This document shows positions 5,713 through 10,303 of a stretch of DNA of 35,077 bases, one piece after another; position 1 is the stretch's first letter; every line of letters starts with the position of its first letter. The translations under genes were made by a program, and so were the position numbers. The notes beneath the pieces are model-generated. The model saw only the letters and a list, made by a program, of their open reading frames with translations, made no database searches and was not told the DNA's origin. The stretch is from the IMG/VR virus record IMGVR_UViG_3300042924_003201, positions 1 through 35,077 of that record. The stretch is one strand, 5' to 3'. Source of the stretch: a virus.

Positions 5713-6350
5713 GGCTGCTGCTGAAATACCCTACACGCGCACGGCCAGCGCAGTTCGTGGAGACCTTGAACGAATACGTGTTCAAGCTGGACAGACCTGA
5801 CCTGTGCGAAGTGATCATCAGTTGCGACATCGACGATGTGACCATGACGCAGTATTCACACATGACCGCAATCCACTACGGCAGGAACAAGACCAAGGTG
5901 CAAGCGATCAACGCGGACATGGACAAGGCGCGCACGCAATGGGACATCGTTCTCCTGGTGAGCGACGATATGATGCCACAGGTGCAAGGCTACGATACGA
6001 AGATCAGGGAGGCTTTCGCGCAGAACTATCCCGACACCGATGGCGAGTTGTGGCTGTACGATGGAAGACAGACGCGCATCAACACGATACAATGCCTGGG
6101 GCGCAAGCGATACGAACACCTTGGATACATCTACCATCCGGCCTACACAAGCCTGGGGTGTGACAATGAAGCAACGGACGTTGGGCTACGGGACGGAAAG
6201 CTGACCTTTGTGCAGGAGTGCATCATCAAGAACGAGTCACCGGATTGGGGAGGGAACCAGCAGGGGGATGATCTGTACCGCAGGAACAACAGGTACTATC
6301 ATAGCGACAGGAGGATCTACGAACAGCGCAAACGAAAGGGATTCACATGA
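5709..6350 (+). CDS. GT-A type glycosyltransferase-like protein
   Basis: This 213-aa protein begins with a strand (MRLLLKYPTR), as many phage nucleotide-sugar transferases do. It continues with an AINADMDKA segment and the acidic metal-binding motif LLVSDDMMP (Asp-Asp in place of DxD). These features fit family-2-like GT-A enzymes, which transfer a sugar from a nucleotide donor. It is the first of four linked genes for glycan synthesis or modification. The acceptor could be phage DNA, virion protein or host surface polysaccharide; the sequence does not say. Confidence 0.62.
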   Translation: MRLLLKYPTRARPAQFVETLNEYVFKLDRPDLCEVIISCDIDDVTMTQYSHMTAIHYGRNKTKVQAINADMDKARTQWDIVLLVSDDMMPQVQGYDTKIREAFAQNYPDTDGELWLYDGRQTRINTIQCLGRKRYEHLGYIYHPAYTSLGCDNEATDVGLRDGKLTFVQECIIKNESPDWGGNQQGDDLYRRNNRYYHSDRRIYEQRKRKGFT

Positions 6351-8416: not shown

Positions 8417-8837
8417 GCGCAACGAAACGCCTGACGCGTTCATCAAACGCTGCATGGAGGATCCCACGATGGTGGATGAATACCCTTTGAACCAGCGTTA
8501 CGCGATCTGCGCGGACAACGTGTACGAATCCGATGAGACCTTCGATGATTACCCACAGGCAGCGACACGGAACGCACAACGCGCTCTGAAGTACAGGAAG
8601 GAGAGCGGCAACCCAAAGGACTGCGGCACACCTGTTGGGTGGGCGAGGGCAAGCCAACTTGCGAATCGCGAACCCATCAGTCTACAGACCATCAAACGCA
8701 TGGCTGCATTCACACGGCACAAACAGAACAGCGATGTACCCTACGAGGAAGGATGCGGTGGCCTGATGTGGGACGCATGGGGGGGGGACGAAGGAATCGA
8801 ATGGGCTATTGAGAAGGTCGCAATACTTCGCAAATGA
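8397..8837 (+). CDS. Phage accessory protein with GWARA...RMAAF...WGGD pattern
   Basis: This 146-aa protein has two phage-typical stretches. The N-terminus has AFIKRCMEDPTMVDEYP and QRYAIC, as in the start of many head-maturation polyproteins. The second half has an ARNAQRAL-like helix, GTPVGWARASQLANREPIS, TIKRMAAFTRH and WDAWGGDEGIEWA, a module seen in phage structural or protease-associated proteins. Its exact role is not known to me. A run of nine G residues at 8779-8787 encodes the Gly-Gly of AWGGD. The start at 8397 is chosen because it begins the conserved N-terminus; it overlaps the upstream gene by 20 nt. Confidence 0.6.
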   Translation: MPIPKRERNETPDAFIKRCMEDPTMVDEYPLNQRYAICADNVYESDETFDDYPQAATRNAQRALKYRKESGNPKDCGTPVGWARASQLANREPISLQTIKRMAAFTRHKQNSDVPYEEGCGGLMWDAWGGDEGIEWAIEKVAILRK

Positions 8838-9298
8838 AAGTACCAACAAGCAAGCTGAAGCCGAACCCGTCGAACCCAAGAATACTTCGCGACGAGAAGT
8901 TCCTCAAGCTGAAGGCAAGTATTGAATCGTTCCCCGATATGCTGAACAAGCGACCTATCGTGGCCGTGACCGACACCGATGGGAAGTACATGGTGCTGGG
9001 GGGCAATATGCGGCTGCGTGCCTGTCAAGATCTGAAGCTGAAGGAAGTGCCAATCATCCTGGCCGACGAATGGACTGAGGAACAGCGCAGGGAGTTCATC
9101 ATCAAAGACAACGTGGGCTATGGCGAATGGGATTGGGATCAACTTGCGAACGAGTGGGATGCAGTAGATCTTGATGCGTGGGGGCTGGACATTCCCAAGG
9201 TTCCGGACTTTGAACCTGTGGGTATGGAAGATCAGCCAAGGCTTGACGAAAAGACACCTATCGAATGTCCGAAGTGCGGCCATGAGTTCACCCGATAA
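8834..9298 (+). CDS. ParB-domain protein with C-terminal zinc-knuckle
   Basis: This 154-aa protein starts with a ParB/sulfiredoxin N-terminal fold: LKPNPSNPRI, then VLGGNMRLRA (residues ~54-63, the nucleotide-binding box), then a VPIILADEWTEEQRREFIIKDN segment. Phage proteins of this type often accompany DNA-modification enzymes. The C-terminus is CPKCGHEF (Cys145, Cys148, His150), half of a zinc ribbon. The gene overlaps the Mom-like gene by 17 nt, so the zinc-knuckle codons sit on the mom start. In phage Mu the zinc protein Com overlaps mom and activates its translation. A Com-like role here is speculation. Confidence 0.75.
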   Translation: MKVPTSKLKPNPSNPRILRDEKFLKLKASIESFPDMLNKRPIVAVTDTDGKYMVLGGNMRLRACQDLKLKEVPIILADEWTEEQRREFIIKDNVGYGEWDWDQLANEWDAVDLDAWGLDIPKVPDFEPVGMEDQPRLDEKTPIECPKCGHEFTR

Positions 9299-9992
9299 GC
9301 CCGTCCTGAAGGTGGCACCATGCAGCCATGAAGCGGCAAAGTATGCCGTGGAGAATTGGCATTATAGCAAATGCATGCCAGGTGCGAAAAAAGTGCTTTT
9401 GATAGGTGTGTGGGAAGATGAAAAATATATAGGAGTTGTGATTTTTTCGCCTGGTGCTACTGCATCACTTGGATCACCCTATGGGCTAAATCAGTTTCAA
9501 TGCACCGAACTTGTCAGAATTGCATTAAACAGACATCGAACACCCGTCAGTAAGATTGTGAGAATCGCATTAATGTTCTTGAAAAAGACATCACCAGGTA
9601 TAAAGTTAGTGGTGAGTTTTGCAGATCCATATCGCAATCATATTGGAGCCGTATATCAAGCCGGAAATTGGATTTATACAGGAGAAAGCGCAGCTACTAA
9701 AGTTTGGGAAGTAGACAACAGAATCATACATCCGAGGACATTAGGAGCATCTGATTTTAAGAAAGGCAGGAAAAAGCAATTACCGACGGGTGCCAAGTCT
9801 GTTATAATGCCAGGCAAGCATCGCTATCTTTACCCACTTGATGAAGCAATGAAGCGCAAGGTTGAACCCTTGCGCAAGCCATATCCAAAACGCGCCGGAA
9901 GTTCATTGGTTGAACACTCCGAATCCATCGGAGAGGAAGGCGGTTCGATTCCGACCGCGGCGCTCAAAGAAACAGCCAACGAACAGCCGTGA
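9282..9992 (+). CDS. Mom-like DNA adenine modification protein
   Basis: This 236-aa protein resembles Mom, the GNAT-fold enzyme that converts adenine in phage Mu DNA to a methylcarbamoyl form and so blocks restriction. Matching features are ENWHYSKCMP (24-33), LLIGVWEDEKYIGVVIF, SPYGLNQFQCTELVRIAL, RTPVSKIVRIAL, LVVSFADPYRNHIGAVYQAGN and the closing RKPYPKR. The ATG at 9282 lies just before this core and overlaps the ParB gene by 17 nt. From 9361 to 9780 a hand count gives 167 G+C in 420 bases (40%), far below the flanks, so the gene looks recently acquired. Residues ~204-228 are encoded by a tRNA-like sequence and may be a by-product of that element. The stop overlaps the GTG start of the putative small terminase. 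Confidence 0.82.
   Translation: MSSPDKPVLKVAPCSHEAAKYAVENWHYSKCMPGAKKVLLIGVWEDEKYIGVVIFSPGATASLGSPYGLNQFQCTELVRIALNRHRTPVSKIVRIALMFLKKTSPGIKLVVSFADPYRNHIGAVYQAGNWIYTGESAATKVWEVDNRIIHPRTLGASDFKKGRKKQLPTGAKSVIMPGKHRYLYPLDEAMKRKVEPLRKPYPKRAGSSLVEHSESIGEEGGSIPTAALKETANEQP
9892..9964 (+). ncRNA. tRNA-like element inside the mom 3' end
   Basis: The 73 nt fold as a tRNA cloverleaf. Acceptor GCGCCG (9892-9897) pairs with CGGCGC (9958-9963). The D-arm is GTTC/GAAC (9901-9904, 9912-9915) with loop ATTGGTT holding the G18G19 pair. The anticodon arm CTCCG/CGGAG (9917-9921, 9929-9933) has a 7-nt loop AATCCAT. The variable loop has 5 nt, and the T-arm GGCGG...CCGACC carries the canonical loop TTCGATT (9944-9950). 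It departs from a working tRNA in three ways: no T33, an extra A in the T-stem 3' strand, and a G-G mismatch closing the acceptor. The formal anticodon would be UCC. The reading frame runs through without a stop. It is either a decayed tRNA or a tRNA mimic. Confidence 0.6.
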
Positions 9993-10303
9993 AGAAGCCT
10001 AATCCAATACGGGGCAACAAGCCGTTCCCGAAAGGTGTTTCCGGCAACCCGAAAGGCAGACCCAAGAAGCTGCCGCAAATCGATGTGCTGCTGGCCGATG
10101 TGCTTGGTGAAGAGAACAGCGATGGCATCGAAGCAGCCAAGATCATTCTGATGGCGTTGCGGAAGAAGGCTGCACAAGGTGACGTGCGTGCTGCTGAACT
10201 GCTGCTGGACAGAGCCTACGGCAAGGCAAAGCAACAGATGGATGTCACAAGCGGTGGCAACCCTGTGCCGATACCGCAGATCATCATGCCGAAGGATGAA
10301 TGA
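9989..10303 (+). CDS. Putative terminase small subunit (DUF5681-like N-terminus)
   Basis: This 104-aa protein starts with GTG, overlapping the mom stop as GTGA. The N-terminus has the phage motif FPKGVSGNPKGRPKK (DUF5681-like, basic). A helical segment follows with IEAAKIILMALRKKAAQGD and AAELLLDRAYGK, a common small-terminase or packaging-protein signature. It directly precedes the large terminase, coupled by ATGA, which supports a role in recognising the phage packaging site. No clear HTH is visible, so the name rests on motif and position. Confidence 0.62.
   Translation: MKKPNPIRGNKPFPKGVSGNPKGRPKKLPQIDVLLADVLGEENSDGIEAAKIILMALRKKAAQGDVRAAELLLDRAYGKAKQQMDVTSGGNPVPIPQIIMPKDE

Follow-up and report, generated by a model that had tools for sequence, protein, structure and literature searches.

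A glycine tRNA-like RNA element linked to phage mom genes and its predicted part in DNA modification

We describe a tRNA-like RNA element that is tightly linked, in several arrangements, to the mom genes of phages, that retains the glycine identity set, and whose fold is under selection. It was found in the window, which is the whole 35,077-nt stretch of viral DNA analyzed here. Sequence comparisons suggest that the element is probably a dedicated glycyl-tRNA, excluded from the ribosome, that feeds the Mom enzyme. To our knowledge, how Mom modifies DNA chemically, and where its glycinamide-like group comes from, is a long-standing question.

Results

By direct reading and by parsing, 73 nt on the plus strand of the window form a tRNA cloverleaf (Table 1). 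The preliminary description had already recognized its arms, the GG of the D-loop, and the UUCGAUU T-loop, along with three departures from a working tRNA (A33 in place of U33, an extra T-stem base, which is the bulged A, and a G-G pair in the acceptor), and our direct parse bore out all of these. The G-G pair is the single mismatch of the acceptor, and U73 is followed by CAA rather than by an encoded CCA. The UUC of the T-loop is kept, unlike in most relatives. When set against a translation-competent tRNA, the element has the cloverleaf with acceptor, anticodon, and T arms. It lacks the combination of U33 with U54-U55-C56 (A33 in the window; U33 and U55 in a minority of relatives) and that of a regular five-pair T-stem with a D-arm (a bulged A in the window, which keeps its D-arm; many relatives are D-armless).

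ARAGORN made no tRNA call at the element, and the best Rfam match in the window was tRNA-Sec (RF01852) at 21.6 bits, under the gathering score of 47. Folding of the element alone was modest (z = −2.8). A covariance model built from other mom-linked elements, as the preliminary description had proposed, was trained on 55 of the 96 distinct elements described below, all from other contigs, with the window left out; it matched the element at 59.4 bits (E = 3.8e-14) as its sole hit in 35 kb.

The mom frame runs from an ATG at 9282 through the element to a TGA at 9990–9992, and the conserved Mom core ends at PYPKR, where the first letters of the element begin. This agrees with the earlier reading that the frame stays open right after PYPK and that the element ends 24 nt before the start of the small terminase gene, whose GTG (9989) overlaps the mom stop. 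The proposed Mom-like identity also held, as the product matched Pfam PF25680 (Mom) at 9e-45 and 153 bits, well above the cut-off of 27.1, and PHROG 1384 (Mom-like) at 4e-52. A profile of the window Mom's clade matched the crystal structure of Mu Mom (8bv8) at 4e-45, and an AlphaFold model of the window Mom (pLDDT 87.6) was closest to 8bv8 (TM 0.74–0.77), then to GNAT acetyltransferases. The nearest Mom to that of the window is in contig L001, where the element is of the short form. A gene with a ParB-N domain lies directly 5′ of mom in the window and also in several relatives.

Table 1. Coordinates of the RNA element, its arms, and the neighboring genes in the window
Feature	Position	Strand	Basis or remark
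Glycine tRNA-like RNA element, full-length class with D-arm	9892..9964	+	R1 covariance model 59.4 bits, E=3.8e-14; parse
Acceptor 5′ strand GCGCCGG; G1, C2, G3 conserved	9892..9898	+	pairs with 9957–9963
D-arm GUUC-AUUGGUU-GAAC, GG in loop	9901..9915	+	parse; arm absent in almost half of distinct relatives
Anticodon arm CUCCG-AAUCCAU-CGGAG	9917..9933	+	anticodon UCC (Gly) at 9924–9926; A33, not U33
T-arm GGCGG-UUCGAUU-CCG(A)CC	9939..9956	+	bulged A at 9954, conserved (59/63 relatives)
Acceptor 3′ strand GCGGCGC, then discriminator U73 (9964) and CAA	9957..9967	+	parse
mom-like gene (Mom family, GNAT fold)	9282..9992	+	frame read through RNA element; core ends at PYPKR (~9896)
ParB-N domain gene, directly upstream, overlaps mom	8834..9298	+	PF02195 6e-8
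Gene taken as small terminase	9989..10303	+	position in front of large terminase gene

To gauge how tightly the element and mom go together, we scanned viral contigs with a Mom query. The scan yielded 80 mom loci, and in every one the core was followed immediately by an element. The query contained the translated tail, a possible source of bias in this count, so the scan was repeated with core residues only. The covariance model then matched 80 of 80 loci, once per locus and directly behind mom. The preliminary description had suspected that translated tRNA-like tails might be common in mom-like loci, and they proved far more general than it had guessed. In bacterial genomes, 15 of 20 mom loci carried an element.

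We also searched the same collection in reverse, with a DNA pattern built only from letters of the RNA element (acceptor ends, AAG, anticodon CC, and T-arm) and holding no mom sequence. A Mom match stood just upstream on the same strand in 104 of the 114 contigs read. Five of the remaining ten had a divergent Mom-like ORF overlapping or following the element (L094, L155, L156, L184, and L194), and those of L094 and L156 matched PF25680. Among the others, several were cut by contig ends, L124 has a DruA gene, and L153 has no mom within its 761 nt upstream. In contig L075, of 2,277 bases, the same element stands at both ends (19–92 and 2175–2248), which probably reflects a direct terminal repeat in the assembly.

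The association extends to the clade of Mu Mom relatives, where an element accompanies mom in 25 of 26 loci and the remaining locus is cut by a contig end; the Mom of L172 is 32% identical to that of Mu. In a third, more divergent Mom clade, all seven loci have the element, 5′ of mom.

The position and strand of the element vary. It lies 5′ of mom in the sense direction in L300–L306, L312, and L314, and 3′ of mom in antisense in L313 and L328–L330; of these, L312, L314, L313, and L328–L330 fall within the clade of Mu Mom relatives. It lies behind the mom stop in L084, L226, and L333. In the last of these, the isolated Psychrobacter phage vB_PmaS_Y8A, the interval between mom and the terminase gene holds a tandem pair of D-armless elements (L333:2153–2293); the paper on this phage used tRNAscan-SE and reported no tRNA genes (PMC10434257). 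In Microbacterium phage Dropshot, whose mom has no sense element, the gene is followed directly by a normal-looking tRNA-Gly(CCC) in antisense (L081:2151–2225, minus strand), and in Salinibacter phage B2_17 the element is already annotated as tRNA-Gly. A terminase gene follows the element in the window and many relatives, and other genes do so in Arthrobacter phages. Because the element can stand 5′ of mom, in antisense, or in tandem, it is neither a fixed cis-signal nor a decayed relic.

The RNA fold of the element is under selection. Among the 96 distinct elements from the RNA-pattern scan, acceptor pairs 4–7, which the search pattern left free, were paired in every one, with many pair types and many two-sided changes. 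The anticodon stem was 93% paired compared with 60% for shuffled partners, and the first three D pairs were 92% paired compared with 78%. Overall, our pair counter found 96.5% of cells paired, against 76.6% with shuffled and 35–46% with slid partners, and 243 cells had changed on both sides, against 72. A MAFFT alignment that mixed full with short forms misaligned the anticodon arms and was left out of these counts. The preliminary description had named a lack of covariation and of related elements as what would speak against its tRNA-like element; instead, stem covariation is strong and relatives are present at all 80 viral loci of the core-only scan.

Translation through the element is incidental. 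The mom frame crosses the element in 58 of the 63 distinct elements behind mom, stops inside it in four, and stops before it in one. Across the element classes three frames are used, with no conserved peptide. On these grounds the translated tail was rejected as a protein domain, and a function for it is not supported. In the window, the read-through stop overlaps the next start, and compact gene packing explains the read-through.

The element has retained its glycine identity set. Bacterial GlyRS recognizes G1-C72, C2-G71, U73, C35, and C36 as glycine identity elements. G1-C72, C2-G71, and U73 occur in 63 of 63 distinct elements behind mom, and G3-C70 occurs in 60. The anticodon is NCC throughout the distinct elements; a few loops misparsed by our script are NCC by hand reading. 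The window element holds all five GlyRS features, which scarcely vary among relatives, and for elements beside mom the amino acid named by ARAGORN was always glycine. This spelling of glycine by anticodon and acceptor is the key feature that the preliminary description had missed. The exception to U73 is in the elements of L303–L306 (~1122–1502, 5′ of divergent mom), which have A73 and may point to hosts with a different GlyRS preference. CCA is encoded in 47 of the 63 elements behind mom and in 57 of the 96 in the RNA-pattern set. Encoded CCA tends to match the style of the host's tRNA genes (11 of 14 cases with a known host genome, P = 0.05, where genome bins may misplace phage contigs), an agreement that is suggestive only.

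Features used in translation were retained far less often. U33 is kept in only 29 of 96 elements and U55 in only 30, whereas a bulged A interrupts the T-stem in 59 of 63 relatives. A D-arm is impossible by length (64–67 nt) in 29 of 63 elements, and A34 is common. Some copies look canonical, such as L081 (CCC, antisense) and L226 (UCC). On a 67-row Mom tree, the element switches between the full and the D-armless form at least seven times on branches with good support, so the D-arm appears to have been lost repeatedly, or elements exchanged, across the tree.

Not every Mom has an element nearby. None of 14 Mu loci has one near mom, and none was found beside mom in Mu-like JD024 or in the sampled Mom loci of Salmonella, Proteus, Listeria, Aeromonas, Klebsiella, Corynebacterium, Synechococcus, Polaribacter, and Enterococcus. 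Six closer relatives also lack it, namely phiEf11 and the five element-less loci from bacterial genomes (Amycolatopsis, two Actinokineospora, Crossiella, and one Rhodobacteraceae). The element is therefore not obligatory for every Mom, and Mu and several distant Mom clades may use host tRNA-Gly instead. The CoA pyrophosphate loop [QR]xxGx[GA] was absent from all 84 Mom cores examined (residues 60–110).

Discussion

Mu Mom converts adenine to N6-carbamoylmethyladenine, a glycinamide adduct, and the product is known for Mu only. If the element is the dedicated glycyl-tRNA that we consider probable, it would be cut from the mom transcript by host RNase P and 3′ trimming, with CCA added where it is not encoded. 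Host GlyRS would then load it with glycine, reading G1-C72, C2-G71, U73, and C35-C36, and the absent U33 and U55, the bulged T-stem, and the frequent loss of the D-arm would bar it from EF-Tu and the ribosome. Mom, which has a GNAT fold without the usual CoA-binding loop, would move the glycyl group to the N6 of adenine in phage DNA. The resulting N6-glycyl adduct would be an isomer of the Mu product, and its free amine could attack C6 via a five-membered ring, an intramolecular rearrangement that would yield exactly the N6-carbamoylmethyl (glycinamide) product of Mu. More tentatively, we think it quite possible that all Moms, including that of Mu, depend on an aminoacyl-tRNA, with glycine acylated onto adenine N6 and then rearranged, and that some phages supply a private glycyl-tRNA barred from translation while others draw on that of the host.

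The element could instead be a tRNA-like control element acting in cis, which would bind GlyRS, RNase P, or a processing enzyme and thereby tune mom or the downstream gene. In Mu, too much Mom is toxic; at most loci the element covers part of the 3′ end of mom, usually with the frame reading through, and cleavage would take away the mom stop codon. However, other loci have the element 5′ of mom, in antisense downstream, behind the mom stop, or in tandem, and a control element would have no need of a conserved U73 or a frequently encoded CCA, so we consider this explanation unlikely. We give less weight still to a phage tRNA-Gly that sits beside mom by chance and serves translation, or counters tRNA-cutting defenses as a decoy or a resistant tRNA. 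Phages do often carry tRNAs, and the canonical-looking copies in L081 and L226 would suit such a role. Yet U33 and U55 are lost in two thirds of elements and the D-arm in almost half, and A34 is common, which leaves them unfit for decoding, and the amino acid is always glycine and the neighbor almost always mom.

Two further ideas from the preliminary description fared worst. A captured tRNA in decay, for example from an old integration site, would fit with most copies no longer being called by ARAGORN, but the covariation is strong, the identity letters are invariant, and the supposed marks of decay (non-U33 and the bulged T-stem) recur in many divergent lineages, making this extremely improbable. 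We see just as little chance of a packaging or structural signal adjoining the terminase genes. The terminase gene does follow in the window and many relatives, but the Arthrobacter phages break this pattern, the element also lies 5′ of mom or in antisense, and it tracks mom rather than terminase. The description had also raised a tRNA mimic that recruits a tRNA-binding enzyme, and this comes close to our preferred reading of a glycine-acceptor RNA.

The closest known parallel is the staphylococcal non-proteinogenic tRNA-Gly, which Fem transferases, also of GNAT fold, use to build cell-wall peptide bridges; it sets a precedent for enzymes of this fold using a charged tRNA as their amino-acid source. 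Both RNAs have a UCC-type anticodon and weakened EF-Tu and ribosome features; the staphylococcal one accepts glycine and is consumed by GNAT-fold transferases, as we predict for the element. What sets the element apart is that phages encode it, that it is joined to a DNA-modifying enzyme's gene, and that it is non-U33, often D-armless, and bulged in the T-stem, and the acceptor for its glycine would be a DNA adenine. It shares the acceptor identity set, U73, NCC anticodon, and cloverleaf with bacterial tRNA-Gly but, as a class, lacks U33, U55, the regular T-stem, and often the D-arm, and is mostly missed by ARAGORN. Its similarity to tRNA-Sec is a weak one of cloverleaf, at a score below gathering; the anticodon is NCC rather than UCA and the acceptor is short. 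The tRNA-like structures of plant viruses are chargeable tRNA mimics at the 3′ ends of RNA genomes. The element, whose charging is predicted, would likewise be a chargeable mimic in viral RNA, but it is internal, gene-linked, and found in DNA phages. The Mom of Mu is of the same family (PF25680) and fold as that of the window but is encoded without the RNA element, and the only donor named for it in the literature that we read is glycyl-CoA, which a jumbo-phage paper proposes as an assumption, with no tRNA (PMC7824862).

We found no Rfam family for the element and no paper linking Mom to a tRNA in a search that left preprints and most subscription journals outside. As far as the literature was searched, the pairing of element and Mom appears new, though prior work may exist. 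If our reading is right, the conserved glycine-accepting RNA gives a direct and testable answer to the question of the Mom donor. We know of no RNA cofactor or aminoacyl-tRNA in DNA base modification so far, and the element would be the first of each. With the element, a class of tRNA-like RNAs emerges, part of them D-armless, that standard finders miss, as in phage Y8A.

One element hints that other defense-related proteins may work like Mom. In the phage contig L124, a gene of the DruA family (Druantia, PF14236; 5227–6366) carries the element in its 3′ end (6275–6350). Homology between Mom and DruA was not supported, with a profile comparison probability of 0.2%. The L124 element is nearly identical to the one behind mom in L172, and a gene swap beside a kept RNA is possible.
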